From NCBI RefSeq assembly GCF_002088945.1, contig NZ_NCSU01000014.1, positions 1 through 64,000 of the forward strand: a stretch of DNA of 64,000 bases, in the 5' to 3' direction. The DNA is from Henriciella pelagia. GTDB lineage: Bacteria > Pseudomonadota > Alphaproteobacteria > Caulobacterales > Hyphomonadaceae. Below are positions 27,681 through 48,625 of the stretch, in pieces; position 1 is the first letter of the stretch, and every line of letters begins with the position of its first letter. The position numbers were made by a program, and so were the translations under genes. Below the pieces are notes generated by a model. The model was not told where the DNA came from. It saw only the letters and a program-made list of their open reading frames with translations, and searched no databases.

Positions 27681-27697
27681 GGTGCGTGTTTCGCACC
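27681..27697. promoter_or_regulatory. Putative LysR-regulon operator, box 1
   Basis: GGTGCGTGTTTCGCACC, extended outward by GC on each side into a perfect 8-bp dyad (27679-27699). It has the T-N11-A signature of LysR-type binding sites. It ends 71 nt before the ATG of the propeller/amidohydrolase gene at 27769 and lies 75 nt from the divergent lipoprotein start at 27605. The same GGTG-N9-CACC pattern recurs before five other genes up to 48.7 kb. Confidence 0.65.
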
Positions 27698-27768
27698 GCC
27701 GGCCGGAAAGTTTGCATCACCCTCGTCTGATCGACCAATGTTACGGACGAGGCTGAAGGAGTCTGATC

Positions 27769-30700
27769 ATGCAAATCCGCTTTCTTACTGTCTGTGCTTC
27801 ACTGGCGCTTCTGGCGTTGATCGCCTGCGCCCAACTCGCACCTGCAGCGACGCCAATATCCGGCAGGACCGTCACATTGGACCTCGATGAAGGGACGTGG
27901 ATGAGCCTTGATATCAGCCCGGACGGAAAGACTATCGCGTTCGATCTTCTGAATGACATTTACATTCTGCCCGCTGACGGTGGCATGGCGACCGCCATTC
28001 ATCGTGGATCTGCGACGCAACGCAGTCCGCAATTCAGCCCGGACGGCCAGTCACTTGTCTATCTCAGCGATGAGACGGGTGCAGACAATGTGTGGGTGTC
28101 GCGCACGGACGGGTCTCAGCCAAGGCAGGTCACGCACGAAACACATGCCTACGTCGCCGGCCCCGCATGGTCACCGGACGGCCGTTCAGTTGCAGCCGTC
28201 ATTTCCTATTCCGACATATTCCGCGTGAGAAATTCCGAGATCCGCCAATATTCACTGGATGGATCCCGAGACGAGCTGATCGTCGAGCCCCGGGAAAGTG
28301 GCAAGGATGTACAGGAACCTCGCTTCGCCCCGAATGGCCGCGACATGTACTTCACTGAGCGCATCGCAGGCGACCACTACGTCTATATGAACACAGGTCT
28401 GAAGAACTTTGCGATAAACAGGTTGAACCTTGAAACCGGCGACATCACCCAGGCTATTTCAGGTTATGGGGGAGCGACAACGCCGCAAGTCGCGCCGAAC
28501 GGAAAATCAGTCGCTTTCATTCGCCGACTGGGGGCGAAAACGGTGCTGTTCGTCAAACACCTGGAGACAGGCGAGGAGCGACCGATCTTTCAGGATCTCG
28601 GACGCGACCTGCATGGAGATTATCTGCCTCAGGAACATTATTATCCGGCATTCGACTGGTTCCCGGACAGTCGAACCATCGCAATCTGGGCGAAAGGCAA
28701 ACTGCTGAAGATTGATACAGCAACCGCGGACGCGACCGAGATCCCGTTCCGCGTCAACGCCGTCCATGAAATTCAGCCTGCAATTCGGGTGCGTCAGGAC
28801 CTCGCACCAGACCAGGTGGATGTACGAACCATTCGCCAATTGACTGTCCAGCCCGACGGTAGCGGGCTCGTGTTTCGTGCGCTCGGCAAACTGTGGCGGA
28901 CAGACCGCCTTGAACCGACAACGCCGACGCGGTTGACCGATCGTGACGCTGCAGAGTCTTCACCCGCCTGGTCTGCGGATGGTCGCCAGCTGGCCTATGT
29001 CAGCTGGAATGATGACACCGGAAGCCGACTCATTGTTCGCGACATGCGTGCAGGATCAGAGTCGGTGGTTGCCAAGAGCCCAGCAGTCCTCGCCGATCTG
29101 GCCTTTTCGAATTCCGGTACGCAAATCGCATATAGAATCCAGGCGCCGGATCCATCGGTCAGCAATGCCGGCCCCGAAGTCGGAATTTACATTGCCGACG
29201 TGATGAGCGGAGAGACGCGCTTTATTGTGCCGGGCACCGGACTTGCGGGCTTCACGCCCGACGACACGCGCATCGTGTATTTCGCCGAACCTGACTACTA
29301 TGATGAGCGCGCCGCTGTCCTCGCCAGCGTAGCCATCGACGGAACTGATATTCGCGAACATGCCGTCGCAGAGACATCTGACGTGCTGTCGATGACGCCC
29401 AGCCCGGACATGAACTGGCTAGCCTTCAAACACCACCAGCGCCCCTACCTCATGCCTCTGGATATTGAAGCAGGTCCGGTCACGGTCACGCCAGAAGGCA
29501 ATCCAACCGCACGCCTTCTCAGCGAAGTTGGCGGTTATGAGTTCAGCTGGGCCGCCGACTCATCACAGCTCTATTGGACACTTGGTCCGGACATATTCGC
29601 GACTGCGCCCGACGCGAGTGGTCCCGGTAATCTTTCGCTGTCCATCCAGATGTCAGTACCGTTCGATAAACCCGAGGGGCAGATTGCCTTTACCGGCGGC
29701 AAGGTGGTCCCGATCGTGGGAGACATCATCGAAGACGGCGTCGTGGTCGTCGATGGCAATCGTATTGTCGCGGTTGGCCCTCAGGGAACTGTTGATATCC
29801 CGGCTGACGCCAAACAGATCGATATTTCCGGGAAAGTCATCATGCCAGGCTTTTTCGACGCTCACGGACACATTGATTGCTGTTGGCGGTCCGAAACGAT
29901 GCCGCAGAAACAACCGACGCGGTACGCTGCACTCGCCTACGGCGTCACCACGAACTTCGATCCTTACTCGAATGACTTGCTGTCCTATGAAAGTGGAGAG
30001 ATGACGCAAGCTGGCGAACTGGTTGGTCCTCGCTGGCTGAAGTCTGGTCAAGTTGTTCATGGTCTCAAAGCGCGGACTGACGGCGTTTATCACCCGCTAG
30101 CCTCGCTCGATGACGCCCGGGATGTCCTCGAACGTCGTGCTGCCCTCGGTTCATCCATTCTCAAGAGCTATAAACTCTCGACCCGCATACAGCGCCAGCG
30201 GCTCGTGCAAGCCGCACGTGAATGGGGCTTCATGGTCGATGGTGAAGGTGCCGGTCAATTCTACACCAATATCGGCATGCTGCTGGATGGGCATACCAAC
30301 CTGGAACACAATCTTCCCGTCGCCACCTATTATGACGACCTTCAGCAACTGATCGCCGCTGCTGACACATCCATGACGCCAACGCTGATCGTGGTGTTTG
30401 GCGAGCTGTTCGGTGAGAATTTCATCTATCAGACGGAACGTCCGTGGGAGGAGGAAAAGGTAAAATCCTTCATCGCTGACGTGAACAACGCCTACAATCC
30501 ACTCTTCGGGCCTGGCGATGCCCCGCTTGCTGTCCGCGCCATGCACTCAATCCATGTTGCTGACGAGATTTACGATATCGGCTTTCGCTCCGTCGGCCGG
30601 TCGGTGAAAAAGCTCATCGACGCGGGTGTCACCGTCAATGTCGGCTCTCATGGGCAAGCTTCAGGTATTGCCATGCACTGGGAAATGCTGCTGTTCGCTG

Positions 30701-31017
30701 AAAGCGGGATTGCCCCTATGGACATCTTGAGGGCGGCGACACTTAACCCGGCCAAGACTTACGGACTTGATCACCAGCTGGGCTCGATCGAGCCTGGAAA
30801 GCTGGCCGATCTCATCGTGCTGGACAAGGATCCCACCGAAGACATCCGCAACACCAACAGCGTGAGCCTGACGATGGTGAATGGACGCCTCTATGACGCA
30901 TTCACAATGAACGAGATCGGAAATTACGACCGACCACGCGGACAGTTCTACTGGGAAAAATTCGAACGAAACGACATAGATTGGAAATCGACATGGACCA
31001 GCCACAGATGTCACTGA
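27769..31017 (+). CDS. Beta-propeller/amidohydrolase fusion protein (paralogue A), exported
   Basis: A 1082-residue exported protein with signal sequence (LLALIACAQLAPA, about residues 13-25). Residues about 40-600 form a TolB/WD40-like propeller with repeated SPDGK blade motifs (MSLDISPDGKTIAF, PQFSPDGQSLVY, PAWSPDGRSVAA). Residues about 635-1040 form an amidohydrolase TIM barrel with DAHGHID as the HxH metal site, a lysine in ILKSYK, NLEHNLPV and GSHGQ as later ligand regions, and a C-terminal GSIEPGKLADLIVLDKDP. Related proteins are annotated as periplasmic peptidase-like or imidazolonepropionase-like enzymes; the substrate is unknown. AAGGAG supports the start. Two further paralogues are in the window, and an FGE-like gene overlaps the 3' end. 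Confidence 0.88.
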   Translation: MQIRFLTVCASLALLALIACAQLAPAATPISGRTVTLDLDEGTWMSLDISPDGKTIAFDLLNDIYILPADGGMATAIHRGSATQRSPQFSPDGQSLVYLSDETGADNVWVSRTDGSQPRQVTHETHAYVAGPAWSPDGRSVAAVISYSDIFRVRNSEIRQYSLDGSRDELIVEPRESGKDVQEPRFAPNGRDMYFTERIAGDHYVYMNTGLKNFAINRLNLETGDITQAISGYGGATTPQVAPNGKSVAFIRRLGAKTVLFVKHLETGEERPIFQDLGRDLHGDYLPQEHYYPAFDWFPDSRTIAIWAKGKLLKIDTATADATEIPFRVNAVHEIQPAIRVRQDLAPDQVDVRTIRQLTVQPDGSGLVFRALGKLWRTDRLEPTTPTRLTDRDAAESSPAWSADGRQLAYVSWNDDTGSRLIVRDMRAGSESVVAKSPAVLADLAFSNSGTQIAYRIQAPDPSVSNAGPEVGIYIADVMSGETRFIVPGTGLAGFTPDDTRIVYFAEPDYYDERAAVLASVAIDGTDIREHAVAETSDVLSMTPSPDMNWLAFKHHQRPYLMPLDIEAGPVTVTPEGNPTARLLSEVGGYEFSWAADSSQLYWTLGPDIFATAPDASGPGNLSLSIQMSVPFDKPEGQIAFTGGKVVPIVGDIIEDGVVVVDGNRIVAVGPQGTVDIPADAKQIDISGKVIMPGFFDAHGHIDCCWRSETMPQKQPTRYAALAYGVTTNFDPYSNDLLSYESGEMTQAGELVGPRWLKSGQVVHGLKARTDGVYHPLASLDDARDVLERRAALGSSILKSYKLSTRIQRQRLVQAAREWGFMVDGEGAGQFYTNIGMLLDGHTNLEHNLPVATYYDDLQQLIAAADTSMTPTLIVVFGELFGENFIYQTERPWEEEKVKSFIADVNNAYNPLFGPGDAPLAVRAMHSIHVADEIYDIGFRSVGRSVKKLIDAGVTVNVGSHGQASGIAMHWEMLLFAESGIAPMDILRAATLNPAKTYGLDHQLGSIEPGKLADLIVLDKDPTEDIRNTNSVSLTMVNGRLYDAFTMNEIGNYDRPRGQFYWEKFERNDIDWKSTWTSHRCH

Positions 31018-31853
31018 AATTCGCAGCATCCATAAGCGCTCTCGCCATTGTTGCATCGTGCGCGAGTAGCGCAGGAATGTCCGTCATTCCCGCTACATCC
31101 TTTCAGATGGGCCAGACAATTGATTATGGATACGGCGAAATTGATGGCCCTCGCCACGAAGTGATATTCCGGCAGGACTTCGCTCTCGCCAGGACCGAAG
31201 TGACCGTTGGAGAATTCCGAAAGTTCGTTGCAACTACCGGTCATGAATCCGGGGGCGACTGCAATGTCTATACGGATACGCGATCGTGGCATGTCGATCC
31301 GACGCGGAGTTGGGAAAACCCCGGTTTTGAACAAGACGAAAACCATCCTGTCGTATGCGTGAGCTGGGACGATGCTGTCGCTTATGCGAACTGGCTGTCC
31401 GAGCAGACCGGCATCGCTTATCGCCTGCCATCCGAGGCTGAGTGGGAATATGTCGCATCCACCGGAGGCATTGAGGGCGACAACGGAATTGTCGATCACG
31501 ATGAAGCCAATATCGGGCTGGACCCGTGTTGTGGGGGCAAGACTTCCGGACGCGACGTATGGATCAAGACGGCTCCGGTCGCCAGCTTTGCGGCCGACAG
31601 GTACGGCATCTACGACATGCGAGGCAATGTCTGGGAATGGCAAGCCGACTGCCACCAGGACATGTATGAAGGTGCGCCGGTCGATGGATCGGCACGGACC
31701 GACTGTGAAACGCCCGACAAACGCTCGATTCGCGGTGGTTCATACGGCGATGCGGGCGATTACCTGTCTCCACGATACCGGCTCCCCGGCCCTCGGTCAC
31801 AAGGATATTTCACTGTCGGTTTCCGTCTGGCGCGCACCATCAACGAAAACTGA
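30993..31853 (+). CDS. Formylglycine-generating-enzyme-like (FGE-sulfatase fold) lipoprotein lacking the catalytic cysteines
   Basis: A 286-residue protein with a lipoprotein signal (ALAIVASC). The SUMF1/FGE fold is clear: FQMG near the start, LARTEVTVGEFRKFV, NHPVVCVSWDDAVAYANWLSE, YRLPSEAEWEYVA, MRGNVWEWQADC and RSIRGGSY. True FGE has a cysteine pair just after GGSY (of the form xC-x4-C); here the sequence is GGSYGDAGDYLSPRYR, with no cysteine, so formylglycine synthesis is not expected. It may be a binding or ergothioneine-synthase-like relative. The start at 30993 has GGAA upstream and overlaps the propeller/amidohydrolase by 25 nt; ATG 31008 is an alternative. Confidence 0.85.
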   Translation: MDQPQMSLKFAASISALAIVASCASSAGMSVIPATSFQMGQTIDYGYGEIDGPRHEVIFRQDFALARTEVTVGEFRKFVATTGHESGGDCNVYTDTRSWHVDPTRSWENPGFEQDENHPVVCVSWDDAVAYANWLSEQTGIAYRLPSEAEWEYVASTGGIEGDNGIVDHDEANIGLDPCCGGKTSGRDVWIKTAPVASFAADRYGIYDMRGNVWEWQADCHQDMYEGAPVDGSARTDCETPDKRSIRGGSYGDAGDYLSPRYRLPGPRSQGYFTVGFRLARTINEN

Positions 31854-31865: not shown

Positions 31866-31882
31866 GGTGTCAAAACATCACC
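31866..31882. promoter_or_regulatory. Putative LysR-regulon operator, box 2
   Basis: GGTGTCAAAACATCACC, a GGTG-N9-CACC dyad with T-N11-A spacing. It lies 81 nt before the start of the P1 peptidase gene at 31964 and just after the FGE-like gene stop, so it should mark a new promoter for the P1 peptidase, gcdH and CoA-transferase operon. Confidence 0.62.
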
Positions 31883-31963: not shown

Positions 31964-33397
31964 ATGGCCAGATCCAAAAGCTCGTTCAACCTGATCCGCG
32001 TTCTGGGTACAGCAGCGGTGATGGGCCTGCTATCTTCATGCGCGGCCACTGCTTCGCCGATATCCGCAGAACCAGATTCGCAGGATGGCCTGCCGGCGCT
32101 GATCAATGACGGGTTCGACAGCGAATCCGTGACCCGGATGGACTGGCCGATGCTGCGCATTGGTACGGGTCAGTACGAAGATGGTCCCACCGGTCTGACC
32201 GTTCTCAGATTTGGCAAGAAGGTGAACGCTGCCGTCGATGCGCGTGGTGGCGGGCCGGGCACGGTGAATGCGGAATATCTCAAACTCGGCTATGTTCAAC
32301 CGGAACTGGATGCCATCGTGCTTGCTGGTGGTTCCTGGTACGGTCTGGAGGCGGTAACGGGGGCGAACTCGGCCTTGATTGACGACCGGTATCGCGGCGG
32401 CCACTGGGACAATGTGGGTCTGGTGGTCGGCTCGATCATTTATGATTTTGGCGGCCGGCGCCTCAATGAAATCTATCCCGACAAACGGCTCGCCCAACTC
32501 GCTTTGCGGGCGGCCAGGACCGGCGTATTTCCGAATGGCGCGTACGGTGCCGGTCGATCCGCAATGAATGGCGGCATCTTTGGCTGCAATGCCCGTTCCG
32601 GCCAGGGAAGCGCGTATCGACAGATCGGTGATGTGAAGATCGCTGTGTTCACGGTCGTGAACGCGCTCGGTGTCGTCACCGACCGAGACGGAAACGTTGT
32701 CCATTGCTTCAAGGGTGATGGCTGGCCCGAAAATCTCAAGGCAAGCGATCTCATGCAATCGGCGCCAGCAAGCCTTCAGCCCGGCTGGAATGGTGAGAGT
32801 GAAAGAGGCGATGTCGAACGCAAGAACACAACCATCAGCGTTGTTGTCACCAACCGCTCGATGAGTTCTGCGGAACTCCAGCGACTGGCTGTCCAGGTCC
32901 ACACGTCCATGGCGCGTGGCATTCAGCCTTTCGCCAGCGAATTTGATGGCGATGTTCTGTATGCTGTTTCGACCAACGAGGTGGACGAGGGCCCGGGAGC
33001 TGGTTTGCCCAGCATGGAGATCGGCGTCACGGCGTCGGAACTGATGTGGGATGCGATTCTCGCAGCTGTCCCAGCCACACAAGTGACCCAACCGCTGCCT
33101 GATCCTGGTCTGGTTCTACCTCAGTCGACACTTCGCGCCTATGAAGGAACTTACAGATTCAGTCACTTTGCTGAGCTCACGGTTCGCCTGGAAAGCGGTA
33201 ACCTGATTGCCGAAGCATCAGGAGAGCGCGACATTTTCCAGGTTAAAACAGGCCATCCCCGCCCGCTTCTGGCAGCATCAAAAGACACGTTTACGGTCGA
33301 ACGCGGGCGCTATCCATTCGCTGTAAAATTCGAACGCGACAAGGTGATCGTCAACCCGGGACGCTGGCAGCAGGTCGGCCACCGCGTCAGCGACTGA
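31964..33397 (+). CDS. P1 family peptidase (DmpA/NylC type) lipoprotein with C-terminal DUF3471-like domain
   Basis: A 477-residue protein with lipoprotein signal GLLSSC (about residue 26). Residues about 50-370 are a P1-family N-terminal nucleophile amidase: GAYGAGRSAMNGGIFGCNARSG-type block, then RKNTTISVVVTNRSMSSAELQRLA. The N288-T289 bond is the expected self-cleavage site and Thr289 the nucleophile, as in the NylC group of oligomer hydrolases. Residues about 385-477 (STLRAYEGTYRF...) resemble a DUF3471-like beta domain more often fused to beta-lactamase-type hydrolases. It would release amino acids or cleave beta- and omega-amino-acyl amides in the envelope. It probably heads an operon with gcdH and the CoA transferase. 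Confidence 0.85.
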   Translation: MARSKSSFNLIRVLGTAAVMGLLSSCAATASPISAEPDSQDGLPALINDGFDSESVTRMDWPMLRIGTGQYEDGPTGLTVLRFGKKVNAAVDARGGGPGTVNAEYLKLGYVQPELDAIVLAGGSWYGLEAVTGANSALIDDRYRGGHWDNVGLVVGSIIYDFGGRRLNEIYPDKRLAQLALRAARTGVFPNGAYGAGRSAMNGGIFGCNARSGQGSAYRQIGDVKIAVFTVVNALGVVTDRDGNVVHCFKGDGWPENLKASDLMQSAPASLQPGWNGESERGDVERKNTTISVVVTNRSMSSAELQRLAVQVHTSMARGIQPFASEFDGDVLYAVSTNEVDEGPGAGLPSMEIGVTASELMWDAILAAVPATQVTQPLPDPGLVLPQSTLRAYEGTYRFSHFAELTVRLESGNLIAEASGERDIFQVKTGHPRPLLAASKDTFTVERGRYPFAVKFERDKVIVNPGRWQQVGHRVSD

Positions 33398-33433
33398 CAC
33401 CCATCCCAGAAACCCAAATTGCGGACAATTCCC

Positions 33434-34612
33434 ATGACCAGACATTCTGCCTTTGACTGGGCCGATGCCCTTTTGCTCGACAATGAGCTGACCGAGATTG
33501 AGCGCTCAGTCCAGAAAACCGCGCATGACTTCGCCCAGGCCCGCCTGCTGCCCGGCATCACTGAAGCCAATCGAAACGGCAGCTTTGACCGATCAATCAT
33601 GAAGGATATGGGCGCCCTCGGATTGCTTGGCCCTACCATGCCCGAAGCATACGGCGGTGCCAGTGTGAGCCATGTTGCGTATGGGCTCGTCTCCCACGAG
33701 GTTGAAGCGGTGGATTCCGGCTACCGCTCTGCCTTGAGCGTCCAGTCATCACTGGTGATCCATCCTATCTACGCCTATGGGTCCGAGTCCCAGCGCCAGA
33801 AGTGGCTACCCGGCTTGATTGCAGGAGATCTCATTGGTTGCTTCGGACTGACGGAGCCCGACCATGGATCAGACCCTGGAAACATGGCCACGCGCGCCAT
33901 CGCCGTGGAAGGCGGGTATCGCCTGAACGGCGCAAAAATCTGGATCACGAACAGCCCGATTGCAGACGTCATGGTCGTCTGGGCGAAACTTGATGGCATC
34001 ATTCGCGGCTTTGTCCTCGAGCGGGGAATGCAAGGCCTGTCGACACCGGAAATCAAGGGTAAGCTCGCCCTCAGAGCGTCTGCCACCGGCGAGATCGTGA
34101 TGAATGACGTGTTTGTTCCAGAAGACAATCTCCTCCCCGGCGTAAAAGGGCTGTCGGGGCCTTTTGGATGCCTCAACAAGGCCCGCTTCGGAATTGCCTG
34201 GGGCGCACTCGGCGCCGCGCGTAGCTGCTGGACCGCTGCCCGCTCCTACACGCTGGACCGCCACCAGTTCGGCAGACCGCTCGCGGCAAATCAGCTTATC
34301 CAGCGAAAACTCGCTGACATGCAGACCGAAATCTCTATCGGCCTTCAGGCTTGCCTGAAAGTTGGCAGGCTGCTTGATGCCGGTATCGCTTCGCCCGAAA
34401 TGATCTCGCTCATCAAGCGCAACAGCGCGGGCAAGGCCCTTGATATCGCGCGCACCGCGCGAGACATGCATGGCGGCAATGGCGTGTCCGACGAGTTCCA
34501 CGTGATGCGTCACATGTGCAATCTGGAAGCGGTAAATACCTATGAAGGCACGCACGACATTCATGCGCTGATCCTCGGCCGTGCGCAGACAGGCATCGCG
34601 GCGTTTGCGTGA
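33434..34612 (+). CDS. gcdH: Glutaryl-CoA dehydrogenase
   Basis: A 392-residue acyl-CoA dehydrogenase of the glutaryl-CoA type, which oxidises and decarboxylates glutaryl-CoA to crotonyl-CoA. [25 protein letters not shown] contains the arginine that binds the terminal carboxylate. [30 protein letters not shown] and the C-terminal [20 protein letters not shown] (catalytic Glu371) are diagnostic. The start at 33434 follows the peptidase stop by 36 nt, and the stop overlaps the CoA-transferase start by one base. This neighbour pair is the standard arrangement for glutarate use. Confidence 0.92.
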
Positions 34613-35865
34613 TGGCAAAGGCGCTAGACAATATTCGGGTCCTTGACCTGAGCCGTGTTCTGGCTGGTCCGTGGGCGACGCAACTTCTTGGTGACCTCGG
34701 AGCGGAAGTGATCAAAGTGGAACGCATTGAAGGGGGAGATGACACGCGCAGCTGGGGCCCACCCTTTCAGGAGAGCGCAGTCTCAGACGAGCGGGAAGCC
34801 TCATACTTTCTGAGTGCCAATCGAAATAAAAAGTCGATCTGCGTTGATGTCTCAACCGTGGCCGGACAGACCGTCATCAGAGAGCTAGCGGCGGCGAGCG
34901 ACGTCGTCATCGAAAACTTCAAGACAGGCGCGCTGGCCAGATACGGCCTGGATGCAGACAGCCTGCTCAAGATAAATCCTCAGCTCGTCTATTGCTCGAT
35001 TACAGGCTTTGGCCAGACAGGACCATACGCGGCCCTGCCCGGCTACGACCTGCTTATTCAGGCGATGGGTGGTTTGATGAGTGTGACGGGTGTACCCGAT
35101 GGCCAACCGGGCGCAGGCCCGATGAAGGTTGGCGTTGCTCTGGTTGACATCCTCACAGGTCTCTATGCCGCAAATGCCATCCAGGCCGCGCTGCTCAGCC
35201 GCCAGCGCACCGGCAAGGGACAGGCAATTGATGTCTCGCTTCTCGACTGCCTGATAGCCGCTATGGCCAACCAGTCGCAGGCGTATCTGGCAACGGGCGT
35301 GAGTCCGGGCAGGCTTGGCAATGCCCACCCCAGCATCTGCCCCTACGATGTATTCAAGACTGCCGACGGCTATCTTGTTCTGGCCGTGGGCAATGACCGA
35401 CAGTTTCGCGCTCTCTGCGGTGAAATCGGACTAGGCGATTATCCGGACGATAATCGATTTGCTACGAATTCGGCACGGGTCGAACATCGAGAGCAGCTCA
35501 CTCGCGCTATCAACGAAGCCCTCAGCACTCGCACCACATCTGAATGGATGAGCGCGTTGGCGAACAGCAAAGTGCCGGCCGGCCCCGTCAACACGCTCGC
35601 CGACGTCTTCGCCGATCCGCATGTGCGAGCGCGCGGAACGCAGGTCGAACTCACCCATCAAAACCTCGGCACCATCCCTGCCGTGCGATGTCCCATCCGG
35701 CTGGGTGCAACGCCCGTGAACAGCGGATCGGCGCCTCCATCACTCGGCCAGGACACCGCAGCGGTTCTTCACGATGTGCTCGGCTATTGTCCTGAACACA
35801 TCCTTGAGCTAGAAGCCGGCGGTGCCGTATCTGGTGCCGCCCGGAACCGTAGCCCTCGGTCATAA
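34612..35865 (+). CDS. CaiB/BaiF family CoA transferase, probably glutarate CoA-transferase
   Basis: A 417-residue family III CoA transferase. LDLSRVLAGPWATQLLGDLGAEVIKVE is the N-terminal Rossmann signature, VIENFKTG follows, and the catalytic aspartate sits in LPGYDLLIQAMGGLMSVTG (Asp146). The gene overlaps gcdH by one base (GTGATGG), so both are made together; the homologous enzyme next to GcdH in animals and bacteria moves CoA from succinyl-CoA to glutarate. Other dicarboxylates cannot be excluded from sequence alone. Confidence 0.88.
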   Translation: MAKALDNIRVLDLSRVLAGPWATQLLGDLGAEVIKVERIEGGDDTRSWGPPFQESAVSDEREASYFLSANRNKKSICVDVSTVAGQTVIRELAAASDVVIENFKTGALARYGLDADSLLKINPQLVYCSITGFGQTGPYAALPGYDLLIQAMGGLMSVTGVPDGQPGAGPMKVGVALVDILTGLYAANAIQAALLSRQRTGKGQAIDVSLLDCLIAAMANQSQAYLATGVSPGRLGNAHPSICPYDVFKTADGYLVLAVGNDRQFRALCGEIGLGDYPDDNRFATNSARVEHREQLTRAINEALSTRTTSEWMSALANSKVPAGPVNTLADVFADPHVRARGTQVELTHQNLGTIPAVRCPIRLGATPVNSGSAPPSLGQDTAAVLHDVLGYCPEHILELEAGGAVSGAARNRSPRS

Positions 35866-39414: not shown

Positions 39415-39415
39415 T

Positions 39416-40849: not shown

Positions 40850-40888
40850 GTTTCGCCCCTCTCGTCTGTTCACGCCAGGACAAGGCCA

Positions 40889-43800
40889 CTAGTGGGCCCA
40901 TGCCGGCTTCCAATTGATGGATTTCGGCACATCATTGACCTCCCAGTAAAAGGGTCGGCGGGGTCGGTCGTAATTGCCAATTTCGTTCATGCTGAAAGAA
41001 TCGTAGAGACGTCCATTCACCATCGTCATGGATACGGTTTCGGTATTGCGGACGCTCTCCAGCGGGTTCGCATCCAGCACGATTAGATCGGCGAGCTTGC
41101 CTTCTCGAATGGAGCCGATCTGGTTCTCCAGTCCAAGGGTTTTCGCGCCATTGATGGTTCCAGCGCGCAGGACTTCAAACGCGGACATGCCACCCTCGGC
41201 AAGCAGCTGCATTTCCCAGTGCATCGCAAGTCCGAACACCTGGCCATGCGAGCCTGCATTCACCAGACCGCCTGCATCCACGAGCTCTTTCATTGAACGC
41301 GCCGCCGCTCTGAAACCGATATCCCAGATCTCGTCGACTGCATTTACACCCGTCATGCCGCGCACATAGGCAGGCGCGCCGACCGGGACAGCGAGCGGAC
41401 TGTAGGAACTCGTTGTCGTCTGGACGAAGTCATTGACGCGAGGGTCCTCCCAAAGCCGGGAAGACTGGTAGAGGAAATTTTCCCCCATCATCTCTCCGAA
41501 TAGGACGATCAGCGTTGGCGTGTGAGCAACATCCGAAGCCGCCAGAAGCTGAATGAAGTCGTCGTAGAGCGTCTCGACCGGGACATTGTGCTGGAGGTTT
41601 ACATTTCCATCCAATATTGCGCTCACACCATTGAAGAAGTGGCTCTCGCCTTCGACATCGACCATGATGCCTGCTTCGCGTCCTGCCTTGTTCAGCATCT
41701 GGCGCTGGCGGCGCAGGATTTGCCGATAGGACTTCACGATCGTTCCGCCGAGTGCGGCCTTCCTTGCCATCGCAGCCTGTGCGTCGGCGAAGCTCCGGAT
41801 CGGCACATAGACAGGGTCGTATTTGCGCTTGCGCCCATACAGCACGTAGCCAACATCGATCGAGCGCGGGCTGACCGCCCCGCCTGATAGTGCCAGTTCG
41901 TGCGCACTATAGGTCGGCAATTCGGATGTATACGGATCGTAATTGGTCGTGACGCCGAAGGACAGAGCCGCAAATCGCGACGCCTGTTGTTGGGGCAGCA
42001 GTCCGGAGGACGCGTAATAGCAGGTGTCGAGGTGGCCATGCATATCAACCAGTCCCGGCATGATGGTCTTGCCGGTTGTGTCCACAATATGAGCATTGTC
42101 TGGCACCAGGGTTGAAGCGGATGGGCCAACGGCGCGGATGCGGTTGCCCTCGACCACAACCGTACCCTTCTCAATGACCTCTTCACCTTCCATTGTAATC
42201 ACACGTCCGCCAACGAAGGCCGTCACACCTTGCGGCTTGTCGACTGGCAGTTCCAGGTCCACGCTGGTGAGGACTTCAGGTTCGGGCATCTCGTCATTCA
42301 GAGAGACCGTCAGGATATCCGGCCCATACGCCCAGTGAACGGCAGAAGAATCGGCTGACCAGGTCAGCTCATAGCCACCGGCCGTTTCGATTTTCGTGCC
42401 CGAGTTGCCGTCCAGAACGCGTTCAGCATCGTCTGCACTAAAAGCGGCGATGTAGTAATTCTGATAGTGGCGGAACGCGACGTGGCTGAAGTCCGGACTG
42501 AGCTTCAGTTCATTGGTGTCGGAATCGGCCGTTCGAAGGTGGACCCGTCTTTCAGACCCGTCGAGCGCAACGCTCTCCAGAGTCGTGACGAGCGTACCGT
42601 CGACATAGGCTTCTGTCGTAAAGAATACGCGTGTGCCGTCGGGAGAAAACCGTGGGTTGCCGCCAATTGCCTCAATCCTGGTCGGTTCACCGCCTTGTGA
42701 CGGGATCCAGAAGAGTCCGGGGTCTGCCCTGTACCCCCCGAGACAATCATCGCCCTCCGCAATCTGGAAAAGGATTTTTGAGCCATCTTGCGAATAGGTC
42801 GGTTGCCGAACAATACCGGGTGAAGAGAACAAGGTACGTACGGCGCCGCCGGTTGTGCGAAGCTTCAGCGCGCCGCCATGAACATCGTCCCACTCGACGA
42901 ACGCAATTGCTTCACCATTCGGTGCATAGGTGGCTTCCGATTGAGATGCTGCGGTATCAGCGACCAACGCTGGATCGCCGCCGGTAACCGATTGTTCCCA
43001 AATCTTGCCCAGCGCTGTGAAGACAAGGTTCTGACCGTCAGGTGAAAGGCCAATCCGGGACACAGCTTTCACCTTGAATGTCTCGGGCGCGAGATCCTGC
43101 GTGACCCGTACCGGCTCAGTCAGGCGATGGCGCGAGGTTACCGAGAATGGAATGATTTCGGCGGCGCCTGTTGTCACGTCGATGCGTTTGATCTTGCCGC
43201 CGGCCCAGATGGCAATGGCCTCCCCATCGGGGAACCAGTCAAACCGAGGATAATAATTTCCCTGTCCGAGAAAGTCGGCCTGACCGTCCCGGTCCAGCTT
43301 GTCATAAATCGGATATTGGGAACGCGTCCCGAAATCATAGATGAACAACATGGTTTCGTCGCGGACACGCCGGACGAAAGCCATTCGGTCTCCGGAGGGC
43401 GAAATGACCGGCGTGGTTGCGCCTCCAAACCCGCCAACAATGGATTTTATTTCGCCGGTGGAGAGCTGCTTTCTGCGGATCTCAAAGTTCTTGTGACTGG
43501 CATCGACATAGACGCCTGACGCGTGAACATGCGAGATTTTTTCGACGAAAAACAAACTCTCGCCATCGGGCCCATAGACAGCGTCATGCACATTTTCACC
43601 ATTTTCCGGCATGGCGACAATCTGTTCGGCAGGCCCGCCTCCGGCTGGATATGTGACTAGCTCCGACGAATGCAGCTTGTCGGCGGTGTCGAAATGTCTT
43701 GCGGCCGCTATTGTCTGACCATCCGCGCTCCATGTTGGCTCGACAACCGCCCTAGAAGTTTCGAATGAAACCTGTGTCGGGCGAGAGCCATTCGGGTCAG

Positions 43801-44140
43801 ATGTCCAGACATTGTCGCCGCCATCCACGTCGCTGATATAGACGATGCGGGTTCCATCCGGGTTGAATTGCGGTGAATGCTGCATTGCGGGCCCACCATG
43901 AACAAGTGTGGCCACGCCACCTTTAGCCGGCATCCGGTAGATATCACCGAGCAGGTCGAACACGATCGTCTGGCCGTCCGGGCTGATATCGAGGCTGATC
44001 CAGGTGCCCTCGTCCACGGTGAACTCGACATTTTTGTAGGGTTCGCCCGTATTGGTGACGTCCCAGTCCTGCGCACTGGAGTTACCTGCGGCGAAGATTG
44101 CCGCGGCAACCGTCGCAGCTATCAGGTTTGTTTTTCCCAT
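40889..44140 (-). CDS. Beta-propeller/amidohydrolase fusion protein (paralogue B), exported
   Basis: A 1083-residue exported protein with signal peptide ending AGNSSAQ (about residue 24). It has the same two-part layout as paralogue A: propeller blades with ISLDISPDGQTIVF, PQFNPDGTRIVY and LSPDGQNLVF, then an amidohydrolase barrel with DMHGHLD, IVKSYR, LQHNVPV and GSHGQVFGLAMHWEMQ. The C-terminal segment VSMTMVNGRLYDSFSMNEIGNYDRPRRPFYWE is nearly the same as in paralogue A, showing recent common origin. GGAGGAGG precedes the ATG. It is followed by the POT transporter and beta-helix genes. A GGTG-N9-CACC box lies 138 nt upstream in the divergent region. Confidence 0.88.
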   Translation of the reverse strand: MGKTNLIAATVAAAIFAAGNSSAQDWDVTNTGEPYKNVEFTVDEGTWISLDISPDGQTIVFDLLGDIYRMPAKGGVATLVHGGPAMQHSPQFNPDGTRIVYISDVDGGDNVWTSDPNGSRPTQVSFETSRAVVEPTWSADGQTIAAARHFDTADKLHSSELVTYPAGGGPAEQIVAMPENGENVHDAVYGPDGESLFFVEKISHVHASGVYVDASHKNFEIRRKQLSTGEIKSIVGGFGGATTPVISPSGDRMAFVRRVRDETMLFIYDFGTRSQYPIYDKLDRDGQADFLGQGNYYPRFDWFPDGEAIAIWAGGKIKRIDVTTGAAEIIPFSVTSRHRLTEPVRVTQDLAPETFKVKAVSRIGLSPDGQNLVFTALGKIWEQSVTGGDPALVADTAASQSEATYAPNGEAIAFVEWDDVHGGALKLRTTGGAVRTLFSSPGIVRQPTYSQDGSKILFQIAEGDDCLGGYRADPGLFWIPSQGGEPTRIEAIGGNPRFSPDGTRVFFTTEAYVDGTLVTTLESVALDGSERRVHLRTADSDTNELKLSPDFSHVAFRHYQNYYIAAFSADDAERVLDGNSGTKIETAGGYELTWSADSSAVHWAYGPDILTVSLNDEMPEPEVLTSVDLELPVDKPQGVTAFVGGRVITMEGEEVIEKGTVVVEGNRIRAVGPSASTLVPDNAHIVDTTGKTIMPGLVDMHGHLDTCYYASSGLLPQQQASRFAALSFGVTTNYDPYTSELPTYSAHELALSGGAVSPRSIDVGYVLYGRKRKYDPVYVPIRSFADAQAAMARKAALGGTIVKSYRQILRRQRQMLNKAGREAGIMVDVEGESHFFNGVSAILDGNVNLQHNVPVETLYDDFIQLLAASDVAHTPTLIVLFGEMMGENFLYQSSRLWEDPRVNDFVQTTTSSYSPLAVPVGAPAYVRGMTGVNAVDEIWDIGFRAAARSMKELVDAGGLVNAGSHGQVFGLAMHWEMQLLAEGGMSAFEVLRAGTINGAKTLGLENQIGSIREGKLADLIVLDANPLESVRNTETVSMTMVNGRLYDSFSMNEIGNYDRPRRPFYWEVNDVPKSINWKPAWAH

Positions 44141-44278: not shown

Positions 44279-44295
44279 GGTGCGTTTATATCACC
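44279..44295. promoter_or_regulatory. Putative LysR-regulon operator, box 4
   Basis: GGTGCGTTTATATCACC, a GGTG-N9-CACC dyad with T-N11-A spacing. It lies 87 nt before the PepSY gene start at 44383 and 138 nt before the divergent propeller/amidohydrolase start at 44140. If PepSY and lysR share a transcript, this box would autoregulate the regulator. Confidence 0.62.
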
Positions 44296-44382: not shown

Positions 44383-45462
44383 ATGAGTTTTGCTACCTTC
44401 CGCATCATCCATCGGTGGCTGAGTCTGATTTTCGTCACTTTATGGATTCTGCAAGCCGCTTCAGGCTTGGTAATCGCGTTCAGGGCCGACATTGATGATT
44501 TCCTGATCGGCAATCCGGCCCGGGAGACTGATGCGCAGGCGTTCGCCAATGCCGTAGAAAGCCTGCAGAAAGAAGGGGCGGACATTTCGTCCATCTGGAT
44601 TTCAGGCGGGCGCGACGGCCAGTACGATGCCTACCTGATGCGCGATGGCGATTCCCAAACAGTCAGGATCGACGGCGCAGGCAACCGGATCCGCGAGCGT
44701 TCAGACTCCGCGCTCTTTTCGGAAGGCGCAGTTTTTGAAACGGTGACCCAGTTTCACAAGTCCTTGATGTTGGGAACCGTTGGCTACCTCTTCTTGTGTG
44801 TGTCGGGTCTTCTGCTCGCGTCCAACATCATTTTCGCCATCGTCATGGGCTGGTCGAGACGGCGACGCTTCAAGGAATTTGCAAAGGCCAACAGCGCTCC
44901 ACCCGGGGTGTCGCTCTCCGGCTGGCACTGGAGGGTCGGGTTATGGGGTGCTCTGCCTGCACTGATCGTCGTGCTGGCGGGGGCCGCGCTCACCCAGGCT
45001 GATGCCCTGGACGAAGCTATCAATGTCACCGAGCCAACACCGGACAACGTCGACTCGATTGTCGAAACGCCGGTCGGTCTCGCCGAGGCCATCGAGACGG
45101 CCCTGGCTGAGTATCCAGGCTCAGAACTGATCGCGATTTCGCTGCCTTCTGAAACCCGGCAGTGGTACCGGTTCCGCCTCAAGGCACCGGGAGAAATGCC
45201 CCGTCTCTATGGAGCGACGAGGGTCTATGTCGGTCTCGGAGGCGATGTGCTGATGAGCCATGACGCGGCAAACAGCTCAGCCAATGAACGACTTTCTGAA
45301 GCGCTCTATCCGCTCCACACCGGCCAGATTGGCGACCTGCCAGGAAGACTGATCAACTTTGCCGTAGGTATCTGGCTTCTTGTCATGGCCTATTTCGGCA
45401 TCCGACTCTGGCTGACTCGACGTGCGGTTGGTCAACGATCTGCTCGTTCTGCAGATCGCTGA
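44383..45462 (+). CDS. PepSY-associated TM helix protein
   Basis: A 359-residue inner-membrane protein of the PepSY_TM group. An N-terminal helix (WLSLIFVTLWILQAASGLVIAF) is followed by a periplasmic region, then TM pairs near FHKSLMLGTVGYLFLCVSGLLL and WRVGLWGALPALIVVLAGAAL, a second periplasmic PepSY-like region, and a last helix INFAVGIWLLVMAYFGIRLWL. RIIHRWLSL and FHKSLMLG contain histidines typical of the family, which often accompanies TonB receptors and may move electrons across the membrane. The start at 44383 is chosen because the frame upstream is not hydrophobic. The lysR gene lies 130 nt downstream on the same strand. Confidence 0.82.
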   Translation: MSFATFRIIHRWLSLIFVTLWILQAASGLVIAFRADIDDFLIGNPARETDAQAFANAVESLQKEGADISSIWISGGRDGQYDAYLMRDGDSQTVRIDGAGNRIRERSDSALFSEGAVFETVTQFHKSLMLGTVGYLFLCVSGLLLASNIIFAIVMGWSRRRRFKEFAKANSAPPGVSLSGWHWRVGLWGALPALIVVLAGAALTQADALDEAINVTEPTPDNVDSIVETPVGLAEAIETALAEYPGSELIAISLPSETRQWYRFRLKAPGEMPRLYGATRVYVGLGGDVLMSHDAANSSANERLSEALYPLHTGQIGDLPGRLINFAVGIWLLVMAYFGIRLWLTRRAVGQRSARSADR

Positions 45463-45487
45463 AATAGGCTTTTGCCAAAGTTTCAAG

Positions 45488-45592: not shown

Positions 45593-46579
45593 TTGGCCGA
45601 CCCCACCGACTCTTCATTGTATCTCGGACAGCAGCCGCCTGCCCGAAAATCGCTTCCACCTTTTGAAGGACTGAGAGCATTTGATGCAGTGGCGCGTCTA
45701 GGGGGCGTCCGCAAAGCGGCGAAGTGGCTCGACCGTGACCATGCCGTCCTCAGTCGGCACCTCCGCAAACTGGAAGAATGGGTCGGTATTGCGCTCATCG
45801 AGCGTGTTCCGACAGGCCTGGTTCTGACAGAAGCCGGCAAGGATTATCACGCTTCGATCGCCAAGTCGCTCGACGCCATTTCATATGCGACGCTCGACCT
45901 GATGAACCAGGGCATCCATCATCAATTGATGATCTGGAGCACTCCGGGTTTTGCCCAGCAATGGTTGTCACGGCGCCTGGCTTCGCTTGAGAAGGCCAAC
46001 AAGGGCGTGGAAATTGAGCTCAAGCCTTCAGTCACCGAACCTGACTTTCTGTCACACGAAGCCAATGCAGACATTCGATTCTGGTCTTCTTACGAAGATC
46101 TGGACGAACTGCCGGCACACTTGCGGTATCAAACGTTCGCAGAATCCCCGATCATCCCGGTCGCAAGTCCCGATTACCTCGAACGGCATCCCGAGATAAC
46201 TTCTCCGAGCGATCTGCTGGCGCACCAGTTGCTCCATGAAAATACAACCAGAACGTGGGAGTTGTGGCTGACTTCGTTGGGTGTTGATTGCGGGAGTGGG
46301 CTCAAAGGGCCTCGCCTTTGGCAAGGCAACCTGACGACAGACGCAGCGCGTGATGGCCGCGGCATCGCGCTCACAAACCCTATGGTCGCGTCAAAGCACC
46401 TTTCGCGCGGGGACCTTGTCTGGATCGGAAAGGATAATCCTGCTTTCCCACCACGTCCCGGCTATTATGTGCTGATCGCGCGCCGGGATCGTTGGGACGA
46501 AGCGAGCCTCAGGCGCTTTCGCACCTGGCTCGCCGGAACCGTTGCGAAGGACATGCCGGAGCTCGTTCCCGCTGCTTAG
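45593..46579 (+). CDS. LysR family transcriptional regulator (GcvA-like), candidate regulator of the GGTG-N9-CACC boxes
   Basis: A 328-residue LysR-type regulator. The winged helix-turn-helix spans LPPFEGLRAFDAVARLGGVRKAAKWLDRDHAVLSRHLRKLEEWVG-like sequence (about residues 20-65), followed by LIERVPTGLVLTEAG and an effector-binding domain whose first strand is HQLMIWSTPGFAQQWLSRRL. The best start is a TTG at 45593 with AGGAG 7-8 nt upstream; ATG 45521 gives a longer N-terminus unlike the family. It is the only LysR gene in the window and lies among six operator-like dyads having the T-N11-A signature, so it is the natural candidate regulator. The effector is unknown. Its 3' end overlaps the convergent serine hydrolase gene by 4 nt. 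Confidence 0.88.
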   Translation: MADPTDSSLYLGQQPPARKSLPPFEGLRAFDAVARLGGVRKAAKWLDRDHAVLSRHLRKLEEWVGIALIERVPTGLVLTEAGKDYHASIAKSLDAISYATLDLMNQGIHHQLMIWSTPGFAQQWLSRRLASLEKANKGVEIELKPSVTEPDFLSHEANADIRFWSSYEDLDELPAHLRYQTFAESPIIPVASPDYLERHPEITSPSDLLAHQLLHENTTRTWELWLTSLGVDCGSGLKGPRLWQGNLTTDAARDGRGIALTNPMVASKHLSRGDLVWIGKDNPAFPPRPGYYVLIARRDRWDEASLRRFRTWLAGTVAKDMPELVPAA

Positions 46580-47736
46580 CCCAGCGCTGTAGCAGCAGCG
46601 TTGAAGAAGTCATTATCCGGGATGGCTTCAGAAAATTTCGGCTTGGCCCTGCAGCTCATGACGGTCAGCACGATATTCCGGGTGGGGTTGACATAAATGT
46701 ACTGTCCGAAGATGCCGCGTGCGCTGTATGCGCCCTCATGATGGCTTCCCTCACGGTCCGGCACGGGCCACCACATATAACCGTAATTGAGCGTATCGGC
46801 GTTCACCACACGCACCTTGGTCGCTTCGGTGAACCAGTCGTCCGGCACCATTGCTTCCCCATCGACGACGCCTCTGTTCAGTGCAAATTGTCCGAGGCGA
46901 GCATAGTCACGCAAAGATGCGCAAATGCCGCTGCCGGCAACCTCAAGACCATCGGGCGCTTCGAGCCACCAGGCTGCGTCCTGCTGCATTCCAGCTTTCG
47001 ACCAGATCTTCTCCGACGCATAATCGGCGAGCCATTTTCCGGTCGCCGCATGCACCAACGCTCCAACCACATGGGTTTCGCCAGTACTGTAATTCCACAC
47101 TGATCCCGGCTCGGCAATTCGTGGCAGGGAGGCCATGAATTCCATGATCGCACCGGGCTGTTGAGCGACCTGAAGATCCAGCATCGTACGACGCTCCGAA
47201 TCTGCATTGGTATGGGTATCGTCCCATTTCACGCCAGACGTCATCTGCATGAGGTGACGGATGGAAACACAATCATAGCCGCTACCTGACAGCTCCGGCA
47301 TGTATTTGACCAGTTGGTCATCGACGCTGTCGATAAAACCATCCCTGATAGCAGCGCCTACGAGTGTGGTAGACACCGACTTGGCCATCGACATCGACAT
47401 CCAGCGCGTCTCTCGATCAATACCCTGATCGTAATATTCGTGAACGATTTCGCCATCCTTCAACGCCAGGAGGCCGACAAGCCGGTTGCGGGATACATAA
47501 TCATACAGGTCATAGCTCGCTCCGCCTGACGGTATGATCAAATCGATAAGGGATGCATCGGCCTCAGGGATCGCTGAAACCTCGCCACCCTTCGAAATTG
47601 TTCGCGTCGGAAAGATCTCGTGAGTGTTCGCAAAGGTTTGCATCTGCACGTTCGGCATAAGCTTGCCGGCATAGGCATCGACAATATCGCCAAGTTCTTC
47701 GAAGCGGGCATCTGACTTTGATACTAGACCATTCAC
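46576..47736 (-). CDS. Serine hydrolase, beta-lactamase fold (6-aminohexanoate-dimer hydrolase NylB-like)
   Basis: A 386-residue class C beta-lactamase-fold hydrolase. The catalytic S-x-x-K is SMAK (about Ser116-Lys119) in the run RWMSMSMAKSVSTTLVG, and the tyrosine motif is WNYSTGE (about Tyr216). MTSGVKWDDTH and YGYMWWPVP are blocks shared with the NylB/EstB group, which includes 6-aminohexanoate-dimer hydrolases and carboxylesterases. There is no convincing signal peptide, so it is likely cytoplasmic. The GTG at 47736 has GGGAG 8 nt upstream and is preferred to a TTG at 47784 without a ribosome site. It is divergent from the PaiB-like gene across operator box 5. Confidence 0.82.
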   Translation of the reverse strand: MNGLVSKSDARFEELGDIVDAYAGKLMPNVQMQTFANTHEIFPTRTISKGGEVSAIPEADASLIDLIIPSGGASYDLYDYVSRNRLVGLLALKDGEIVHEYYDQGIDRETRWMSMSMAKSVSTTLVGAAIRDGFIDSVDDQLVKYMPELSGSGYDCVSIRHLMQMTSGVKWDDTHTNADSERRTMLDLQVAQQPGAIMEFMASLPRIAEPGSVWNYSTGETHVVGALVHAATGKWLADYASEKIWSKAGMQQDAAWWLEAPDGLEVAGSGICASLRDYARLGQFALNRGVVDGEAMVPDDWFTEATKVRVVNADTLNYGYMWWPVPDREGSHHEGAYSARGIFGQYIYVNPTRNIVLTVMSCRAKPKFSEAIPDNDFFNAAATALG

Positions 47737-47845
47737 AGGACCATCTCCCTTTCCTGAATGTCCGGCCAAGCCGGTGTTCTTCAACAGTTGGGTGAGACCG
47801 TAGCGTCTGTCGGGATATGGCTCAGGTGCTAAGCGGTCTGGATGC

Positions 47846-47862
47846 GGTGCTGATTTATCACC
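47846..47862. promoter_or_regulatory. Putative LysR-regulon operator, box 5
   Basis: GGTGCTGATTTATCACC, a GGTG-N9-CACC dyad with T-N11-A spacing. It ends 79 nt before the PaiB-like gene start at 47942 and lies about 110 nt from the divergent NylB-like gene start, so it could control both. Confidence 0.62.
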
Positions 47863-47941
47863 AGGCAGTCCTGATTACGCGCCGGACAAGTCAATTCTCT
47901 ACCGCGACACTCAGAGTCAATTGTAGACTCAGGAGGTCATC

Positions 47942-48589
47942 ATGACTGACATAGCCAGCTCTTGGAGAATGTTCGTTCCTCAATCCTATCGAGCGTCTGA
48001 CCCGGAAGCCATTATCAGCCATCATGCATTTGGTCAGATCGTAACGGCGCACAATGGTATGCCGTATGCGACCAGTGTGCCCATGTATCTTGAAGATGGT
48101 CCGATGGGTGAACGCATTCTGTTCGGACATATGGCTCGCGACAATCCGCAGGCTGCAACACTGATGTCCGGCATGAAGGCGTTGGCCACCTTCCACGGTC
48201 CAAATACTTATATCTCCGCGAGTTGGTACAAGGACCAGCCAACTGTCCCGACCTGGAACTATGTCGCCGCCCAGGTGCGAGGCACCCTCACTCCGATCGA
48301 TGATGATGAAAAGCAGCTGGCCATCATGCGCAAGACGATCGACCGCAGCGAGGCACGAACCGGCACCAGCTGGCTCATGAAGGACGCGCCCGCCGGCAAG
48401 ATCGACAGCCTGCTACCGCGCATCCGCTCCTTCCAGATAACTGTCGAGCGCATAGATGGCGTCACCAAACTCAGCCAGAAGCATCCACCTGCCGATCGGG
48501 AGCGGGTCATCGCTGCGCTGGAAGCCCTTCCAGGCGTAGCGGAAGCCCAGATCGCGGCATTGATGCGCAACCTCGGAAATGAAGATTAG
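47942..48589 (+). CDS. PaiB-like FMN-binding protein
   Basis: A 215-residue FMN-binding split-barrel protein of the PaiB group, named after a Bacillus negative regulator. The N-terminal MFVPQSYRASDPEAIISHHAFGQIVT, the middle SASWYKDQPTVPTWNYVAAQVRGT and the C-terminal KLSQKHPPADRERVIAAL are characteristic. Many such proteins are probably flavin-dependent enzymes rather than DNA-binding regulators, as no helix-turn-helix is visible. AGGAGG precedes the ATG. A second, more diverged member is encoded at 63161-63742. Confidence 0.85.
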   Translation: MTDIASSWRMFVPQSYRASDPEAIISHHAFGQIVTAHNGMPYATSVPMYLEDGPMGERILFGHMARDNPQAATLMSGMKALATFHGPNTYISASWYKDQPTVPTWNYVAAQVRGTLTPIDDDEKQLAIMRKTIDRSEARTGTSWLMKDAPAGKIDSLLPRIRSFQITVERIDGVTKLSQKHPPADRERVIAALEALPGVAEAQIAALMRNLGNED

Positions 48590-48608
48590 AGCAAGCTTGC
48601 AGGCCACC

Positions 48609-48625
48609 GGTGCTCTAAGCGCACC
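48609..48625. promoter_or_regulatory. Putative LysR-regulon operator, box 6
   Basis: GGTGCTCTAAGCGCACC, with 5-bp arms GGTGC/GCACC and T-N11-A spacing. It ends 79 nt before the aminotransferase start at 48705 and just 19 nt after the PaiB-like stop, so it would drive the aminotransferase operon separately. Confidence 0.65.

Follow-up and report, generated by a model that had tools for sequence, protein, structure and literature searches.

GGTG-N9-CACC dyads as predicted operators of a LysR regulon in an amide-catabolism-like gene cluster of Henriciella pelagia

The 64,000-nucleotide (nt) stretch of Henriciella pelagia analyzed here (contig NZ_NCSU01000014.1, positions 1 to 64,000; hereafter the window) carries six copies of the dyad GGTG-N9-CACC, distributed through a cluster of genes that resemble those of amide catabolism. 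Very probably, the LysR-type regulator encoded at 45593 recognizes the six dyads; it is predicted from the sequence to bind them and to switch on these scattered genes. Many other bacteria have these sites and genes in combination as well. A first-pass annotation of this DNA had proposed a LysR regulon; the proposal is now supported by recurrence that is specific to the spacing of the dyad, by the presence of sites in 49 of 51 loci fetched through LysR similarity alone, and by a geometry like that of known LysR sites.

The dyads and their extended form

An exact scan of both strands of the window returned the six copies at the coordinates previously claimed, and no seventh. As had also been asserted, all six lie between genes, they end 71, 81, 83, 87, 79, and 79 nt before the respective ATG codons, and positions 3 and 15 are T and A throughout, the T-N11-A signature of LysR-type sites. 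In order, with relatives given by genome (G) or locus (L) handle, they are:

GGTGCGTGTTTCGCACC, 27681..27697, plus strand; half-site GCATC at 27714-27718; predicted promoter of the amidohydrolase gene at 27769; orthologous site in G063
GGTGTCAAAACATCACC, 31866..31882, plus strand; half-site GCATC at 31899-31903; predicted promoter of the nylC-like gene at 31964; orthologous sites in G063 and G033 (one mismatch)
GGTGCATCGCGCGCACC, 35945..35961, plus strand; half-site GCATC at 35978-35982; predicted promoter of the TonB receptor gene at 36045; orthologous sites in G063, G009, L028, and G033
GGTGCGTTTATATCACC, 44279..44295, bidirectional; half-sites GCATC at 44312-44316 (plus) and GCGTC (minus); between an amidohydrolase gene (minus strand, start 44140) and the PepSY_TM gene at 44383
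GGTGCTGATTTATCACC, 47846..47862, bidirectional; half-sites GCGCC at 47879-47883 (plus) and GCACC (minus); between the nylB-like gene (minus strand, start 47784) and the paiB-like gene at 47942
GGTGCTCTAAGCGCACC, 48609..48625, plus strand; half-site TCATC at 48642-48646; predicted promoter of the aminotransferase gene at 48705

Because two of the sites lie between divergent genes, eight promoters are likely, not six. The dyad at 44279 is 138 nt upstream of the minus-strand amidohydrolase start and is kept between the same two genes in G063, G009, and L028; the dyad at 47846 is likewise kept between its two neighbors in G063, G009, L028, G033, and G303. Read on the minus strand, both have a half-site-like block at the usual offset, and the GCACC on the nylB side is retained in G063, G009, L028, and G033; the block on the amidohydrolase side varies in relatives (GCCCC, GCGCC, GCCCC). 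The TCATC half-site of the dyad at 48609 is kept in G063, G009, and L028, and this dyad probably serves the whole run of four genes that ends at 54030.

Six copies are improbable by chance, as had been claimed. Dinucleotide shuffles of the window (n = 100) contain a mean of 1.22 copies and reach six in 1 of 100, and the background of the genome (3,444,025 bases, 16 contigs) predicts 0.68 plain copies per 64 kb. The resulting probability of six or more, ~8e-5, concerns copy number alone and leaves out intergenic placement, similar spacing, and the shared downstream half-site. The plain pattern is ordinary elsewhere in the genome and concentrated in the window alone: there are 42 copies in the genome, 36 of them outside the window, compared with 35 copies of a reversed control. 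A genome-wide regulon was rejected on these counts and because the extended pattern described below is exact in the cluster only. The gene at 45593 does appear to be the sole LysR gene here, as stated in the first-pass annotation, given that only 1 of the 13 HTH_1 matches in the genome falls within the window coordinates.

The six sites share more than the two arms. C directly precedes GGTG (position 0) in all six, and position 5 is C in five (across 209 rows of related loci, position 5 is C at 0.56, A at 0.24, and T at 0.20). Positions 34-38 hold an additional half-site block, GCATC in four sites, TCATC in one, and GCGCC in one, that resembles the right arm GCACC and lies 21 base pairs (bp), or two helical turns, away from it. 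The extended pattern CGGTG-N9-CACC-N17-CATC has five exact matches in the 3.44-Mb genome, all in the cluster, and the sixth site departs from it at two positions. Exact matches occur in 27 of 61 genomes (this one and 60 relatives), with five here, two each in G009 and G037, and one each in the other 24. The two G009 matches, at 86563 and 94806 of contig 17, fall within that genome's version of the cluster, next to a LysR gene at 84307.

Of 203 oriented related sites, 63 have GCA[CT]C at +34, and six at most have it at any other offset from 18 to 84. Positions 62-67 are A/T-rich (0.54-0.72; A63 0.48, T67 0.41) and -10-like, which would place the transcription start near position 74 and the dyad center near -65. 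According to the available part of one source, LysR proteins cover 50-60 bp that include a T-N11-A site at about -65 and, in the -35/-10 regions, an activation site (PMC8407307). The predicted operator fits this architecture in its T-N11-A dyad, its half-site 21 bp downstream, and its -10-like stretch; the earlier suggestion that the distances suit a LysR activator bound near -65 would agree with the predicted start.

Recurrence in related loci

Relatives were fetched without the use of the motif. A search for the LysR protein gave a match at 1e-60 in five of the 61 genomes, and a scan of 84,980 species with a LysR alignment gave 51 loci with LysR proteins 46-79% identical. They come from Hyphomonas, Henriciella, Pacificimonas, Altererythrobacter, Kordiimonas, Asticcacaulis, Sphingosinicella, Bradyrhizobium, Steroidobacter, Microbulbifer, and others, including one metagenome-assembled genome labeled Acidobacteria. 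Together with G033 they make up 52 regions of 1,002,831 bases, of which 82,545 are outside a crude gene model.

The noncoding DNA of these regions contains 89 copies of GGTG-N9-CACC. The same arms spaced by N5-N8, N10, N11, or N13-N15 occur 0-6 times and by N12 14 times, and eleven other N9 palindromes occur 0-7 times. The pattern is far from equally common inside genes: its density is 1.08/kb in noncoding and 0.105/kb in coding DNA (other spacings in noncoding DNA, 0-0.17/kb). The 97 “coding” N9 copies are more than for other patterns, and part of them probably arise because the crude gene model extends starts into promoters, using the GTG inside the site. N12 was considered as a second operator and rejected, because in the 51 loci 20 of its 39 copies have one arm in common with an N9 dyad; once these are set aside, seven remain of the 27 genes that it precedes by 20-200 nt, which is like the nine other spacings (0-9 genes).

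Sites stand near cluster genes in 49 of the 51 loci, with 157 distinct sites in 209 site-gene pairs (counting only the best tblastn match per gene and locus, with a start within residue 45). Among 339 evaluable genes (L029 and duplicate rows for the second amidohydrolase left out), 161 are preceded at 20-200 nt by an N9 site. By family, the site precedes nylC in 21/26, nylB in 31/41, paiB in 19/25, the TonB receptor (tbdt) in 24/38, and the aminotransferase (amt) in 24/43; it precedes lysR in 18/50, the peptide symporter (pot) in 8/38, the first amidohydrolase (amh1) in 6/14, the PepSY_TM gene (pepsy) in 4/9, the beta-helix gene in 4/12, and alanine dehydrogenase in 1/5. Genes that are usually internal to operons served as the control and almost never have it (CoA-transferase, coaT, 0/10; aldehyde dehydrogenase 0/7; porin 0/7; glutaryl-CoA dehydrogenase, acd, 1/12). 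The families fge and g54213 each gave 0/1.

The sites are conserved in orthologous promoters and follow the genes when gene order changes. The dyad is kept at 8 of 8 promoters in G063, 6 of 6 in G009, and 6 of 6 in L028 (orthologues of amh1 and nylC were not found in the fetched stretch of G009). In ten promoter pairs (the window versus G063 and G009, with the second amidohydrolase and nylB rows dropped because they show the same sites from the other side), the arms and half-site are conserved and the spacer is not: identity is 49/50 in the left arm, 45/50 in the right arm, 90/100 at positions 31-40, and 23/70 in the spacer. Other segments give 5/10 at position 0, 70/130 at 18-30, 73/200 at 41-60, 42/80 at 61-68, 18/70 at 69-75, and 95/240 upstream. 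G033, in which the gene order is rearranged, has the exact dyad at seven promoters (tbdt, pot, amt, nylB, paiB, amh1, and pepsy), and a copy with one mismatch at nylC. At its pepsy promoter (contig C1, near 2,720,000), half-site-like GCGTCTGG lies 11 nt, or one helical turn, farther than usual.

The regulator and competing explanations

The proposed activator is encoded as follows:

LysR-type regulator, 45593..46579, plus strand; 328 amino acids, GcvA-like subfamily

Its gene starts with TTG behind an AGGAG, and the protein matches PF00126 (HTH_1, 1.6e-16) and PF03466 (substrate-binding, 1.6e-20). Two GCACC-type half-sites are present upstream of the gene at 45484-45519, and autoregulation is possible. 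In the mechanism that we propose, the regulator, probably as a tetramer, would sit on the dyad near -65; once it had bound an inducer, perhaps glutarate or an omega-amino acid, it would engage the half-site at about -40, bordering the -35 region, and recruit RNA polymerase. Eight promoters of one dispersed catabolic set would in this way be switched on.

Several observations weigh against this proposal. Only the exact extended form is specific, because matches with up to two mismatches are common in the genome (at least 80 forward and at least 70 reverse, compared with at least 37 and at least 37 for the control). Even exact extended matches number 28 in the 60 relatives versus 7 for the control, an excess partly accounted for by one near-identical stretch shared by seven genomes, which is probably a conserved unrelated sequence. 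The 51 loci are not independent (several stem from the same genome, others from near relatives, and L061 overlaps L069), two of them (L056, 3.4 kb, and L073, 8.0 kb) contain no site, and the exact site precedes only 161 of the 339 genes. In the conservation analysis, positions 1-4 and 14-17 are set by the search pattern, and the free tests are positions 5 and 13, the half-site (31-40), and the spacer. In G033, pot, amt, and amh1 have imperfect half-sites and pepsy has none at +34, and in the window lysR itself has no full dyad upstream.

Two genomes also bear on the coupling of regulator and site. Among 299 sampled genomes of the order, LysR orthologues (1e-75) are in four and NylC orthologues (1e-60) in five; this genome, G063, and G033 have both, G009 has LysR only, and G053 and G303 have NylC only. 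In G053, a dyad with half-site GCGCC stands behind the NylC-like gene, facing a nylB-like gene whose start is 655 nt away, yet the closest LysR has 39% identity and is encoded on a different contig. In G303, nylB- and paiB-like genes flank a dyad that has GCATT at +34 and is 97 nt upstream of the paiB-like gene, yet the best LysR in the genome is 31% identical. Both counter a strict coupling of LysR and site. The two had been candidates for negative controls, as NylC genomes lacking the regulator and a proper site, and were ruled out because each carries the dyad in a cluster-like gene set; neither these stretches (L117 in G053 and L118 in G303) nor the rest of either genome contains a close LysR.

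One rival that draws on these two genomes is that the dyads are sites of another regulator (for example GntR, TetR, or a global factor) and that lysR merely travels with the cluster. We think this quite unlikely. The G303 assembly is fragmented (700 contigs, 92% complete), so its lysR may be missing from the assembly, and the LysR of G053 is beside a nylB-like gene; moreover, of the 51 loci retrieved through LysR similarity alone, 49 have the site, across distant taxa and differing gene orders, and a T-N11-A symmetry with a half-site two turns away, near -40, is the LysR architecture in the accessible portion of PMC8407307. A different possibility is that the LysR protein binds these sites and represses, with the inducer lifting repression. 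LysR proteins are able to repress from such sites, and the location of the dyad is not decisive by itself, but a half-site near -40 to -36 and a dyad center near -65 match the activating arrangement (given the predicted start), and the nearest characterized analogue, GcdR, activates gcdH as far as the source was available (PMC6667623); we therefore consider repression unlikely. Chance, or a composition effect of G+C-rich intergenic DNA, could draw on the near-equality of the plain pattern and its reversed control genome-wide and on the one shuffle that reached six. It is set against the local density, the spacing-specific recurrence in the 52 regions, the restriction of exact extended matches in this genome to the cluster, and the pattern of conservation in arms and half-site, and we regard it as extremely improbable. 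Activation by the LysR protein encoded at 45593 is the reading that we retain.

Other occurrences of the LysR family were noted. A 43%-identical LysR in L019 (G012, 1-3889) lies beside a class III aminotransferase and, judged by eye, glutamine-amidotransferase-like and FAD-oxidase-like frames; it may be a sister regulator for polyamine breakdown. Peristeroidobacter soli has four relatives of the family in one genome project (L041, L042, and the overlapping L061 and L069), surrounded by hydrolase and receptor genes and by sites. Viral contigs searched for this LysR gave three stretches that match a pattern and none that encodes a relative.

Cluster genes, a possible pathway, and known systems

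The genes around the regulator are listed below, with N-terminal signals judged by eye for the first amidohydrolase and the NylC-like protein.

27769..31017, plus; TolB-propeller/amidohydrolase (amh1), signal-like N-terminus
30981..31853, plus; FGE-sulfatase/PvdO-like protein, by family matches; probable operon partner of the adjoining amidohydrolase
31964..33397, plus; NylC-like N-terminal-nucleophile hydrolase (Peptidase_S58), signal-like N-terminus; predicted autocleavage at Asn288/Thr289
33419..34612, plus; glutaryl-CoA dehydrogenase (acd), by structure-database match; next best genome match 30% identical
34609..35865, plus; class III CoA-transferase (coaT), nearest the succinate-glutarate CoA-transferase model (511 bits, cut-off 750)
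36045..38180, plus; TonB-dependent receptor (tbdt), by family matches
38485..39414, minus; right-handed beta-helix protein, by family match
39416..40873, minus; POT-family oligopeptide:H+ symporter, over the family cut-off
40889..44140, minus; second TolB-propeller/amidohydrolase (amh2), by family match; signal-like N-terminus
44383..45462, plus; PepSY_TM membrane protein, by family match
46576..47784, minus; beta-lactamase-fold serine hydrolase, called NylB-like; SxxK at 132-135
47942..48589, plus; PaiB-like FMN-binding protein, by family match
48705..50078, plus; class III omega-aminotransferase (putrescine/polyamine, omega-amino:pyruvate type), by structure and family matches
50035..51552, plus; succinate-semialdehyde-dehydrogenase-like aldehyde dehydrogenase, by family matches
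51549..52874, plus; porin-like outer membrane protein, by family match
52858..54030, plus; alanine dehydrogenase, over the family cut-off; could recycle alanine to pyruvate

The glutaryl-CoA dehydrogenase scores 582.6 bits to 3gnc (below the entries named GCDH and 4w9u, the next match is at 236.9 bits) and has Arg103 and Glu376, both of which presumably have functional roles. The NylB-like protein (S132-M-A-K135; Pfam Beta-lactamase) matches PDB 8rlj, which we take to be the PIB-1 enzyme, at 1.6e-93, and entries named 6-aminohexanoate-dimer hydrolase at 7e-29 to 5e-22. The available part of PMC13269358 cites 8rlj as a beta-lactamase-family protein of Medrano et al. 2024. The NylC-like protein aligns at 4e-55 to the endo-type 6-aminohexanoate oligomer hydrolase, with Asn288/Thr289 on Asn266/Thr267 (numbering from an excerpt of PMC6021441).

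G+C content falls to 0.56-0.59 in the cluster from ~0.60-0.64 outside, so the cluster is perhaps acquired DNA. G025, G002, and G020, genomes that give no LysR match at 1e-60, share synteny with the left flank (20671-25664); within the 10.8-14.8 kb fetched beyond that flank, however, none of the right-flank genes turned up. A separate unit at 55343-61823 contains an AraC-type regulator, a third PD40/amidohydrolase protein, and a second TonB receptor, and is without GGTG-N9-CACC.

On the gene families, we judge it an even call that the cluster serves the catabolism of C5 omega-amino oligoamides. An oligoamide would enter through the TonB receptor or the porin and be cut by the NylC-like and amidohydrolase enzymes (presumably exported); the peptide symporter would import the short pieces, from which the internal NylB-like hydrolase would release omega-amino units. 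The division of labor described in the available part of PMC10858056 gives trimers and longer chains to NylC-type enzymes and dimers to NylB-type. The aminotransferase and aldehyde dehydrogenase could then convert the omega-amino units to a dicarboxylate, glutarate in the case of C5 units, which the CoA-transferase and glutaryl-CoA dehydrogenase would take through glutaryl-CoA to crotonyl-CoA, with alanine dehydrogenase recycling the amino acceptor. Oligopeptide-like uptake is also suggested by Bradyrhizobium L071, where genes for a family-5 solute-binding protein and an oligopeptide-type ABC ATPase lie near that for LysR. Counting against the pathway as a general one, acd is in 12 of the 51 loci and coaT in 13 (some loci are cut by their ends), and the glutarate branch may therefore not be universal.

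As far as we know, it is not well understood where nylon hydrolases came from or what they act on in nature. We suggest, quite tentatively, that this regulon is the natural home of nylon-type hydrolases, a dedicated and regulated route by which Alpha- and Gammaproteobacteria would import and burn natural oligoamides of C5 omega-amino acids or diamines. Desferrioxamine-type hydroxamate siderophores are built from cadaverine and succinate. We consider it improbable that they are the substrate; if they were, the TonB receptor, PepSY_TM protein, NylC/NylB-like hydrolases, polyamine-type aminotransferase, and glutarate pathway would all make sense under a single LysR switch. With regulator, operator, and targets all named, a pattern of spaced letters becomes a specific and testable regulon. 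Through the regulator, NylC- and NylB-like enzymes would be linked to a pathway for omega-amino acids and glutarate; the natural substrate, or something formed from it during breakdown, is expected to be the inducer, and the operator could serve as a sensor for such compounds.

LysR regulons are already known as a kind; this one, and its tie to relatives of nylon hydrolases, appears undescribed among the matches listed from the open-access literature. That literature gave no paper joining a P1 family peptidase, a TonB-dependent receptor, and LysR, none on desferrioxamine degradation with cadaverine and a hydrolase, and, by titles and the starts of abstracts, no LysR regulator of 6-aminohexanoate or nylon breakdown. 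Of two papers that bring together 5-aminovalerate, glutaryl-CoA dehydrogenase, LysR, and an aminotransferase, one is that on GcdR (PMC6667623). The available part of a 2026 nylon review (PMC13215870) has no match for LysR, regulator, TonB, or transcription.

The caprolactam cluster of Pseudomonas jessenii is alike in its omega-aminotransferase, semialdehyde dehydrogenase, and CoA-transferase steps, acting there on a C6 omega-amino acid; in the portion of the source at hand it differs in having CsiR- and IclR-type regulators, with LysR not mentioned, and no NylC homologue (PMC6061476). Nylon-oligomer catabolism, as far as the excerpts go, likewise brings together NylC-like, NylB-like, class III aminotransferase, and semialdehyde dehydrogenase proteins, and Asn266/Thr267 are kept here. 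Unlike it, the present cluster would end in glutaryl-CoA, not adipate, and includes a TonB receptor and a POT transporter; its NylC-like protein is extended at the C-terminus and signal-like at the N-terminus, and its “NylB-like” protein is far closer to PDB 8rlj than to entries named NylB.

As for the regulator, the GcvA subfamily provides its best NCBIfam match (PRK11139) and best structure match (8y6u GcvA, 8.2e-32), but the PRK11139 score is 180.5 bits against a cut-off of 288, and there is no glycine-cleavage gene among the cluster proteins scanned. A closer functional parallel may be GcdR of Pseudomonas putida KT2440, described in the available text as a LysR-type protein encoded beside gcdH that activates gcdH with glutarate as effector and has the footprinted site GTGACAAAATATCAC, AGTGA-N7-TCACT (PMC6667623). 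On the same partial source, and with the likeness judged from operators and targets, the inner bases are A/T there (GTGA-N7-TCAC) and mostly C/G here (GGTGC-N7-GCACC, with the outer base G/C), and gcdH is the only target there, compared with eight promoters in an amide-catabolism-like cluster here. The two operators nevertheless have the GTG-N9-CAC frame and T-N11-A in common, and a glutaryl-CoA dehydrogenase gene is a target there and a predicted target here; the site at 31866 is followed by the nylC-like gene and, after a further 21 nt, by the dehydrogenase gene, and the two genes are predicted to be co-transcribed.

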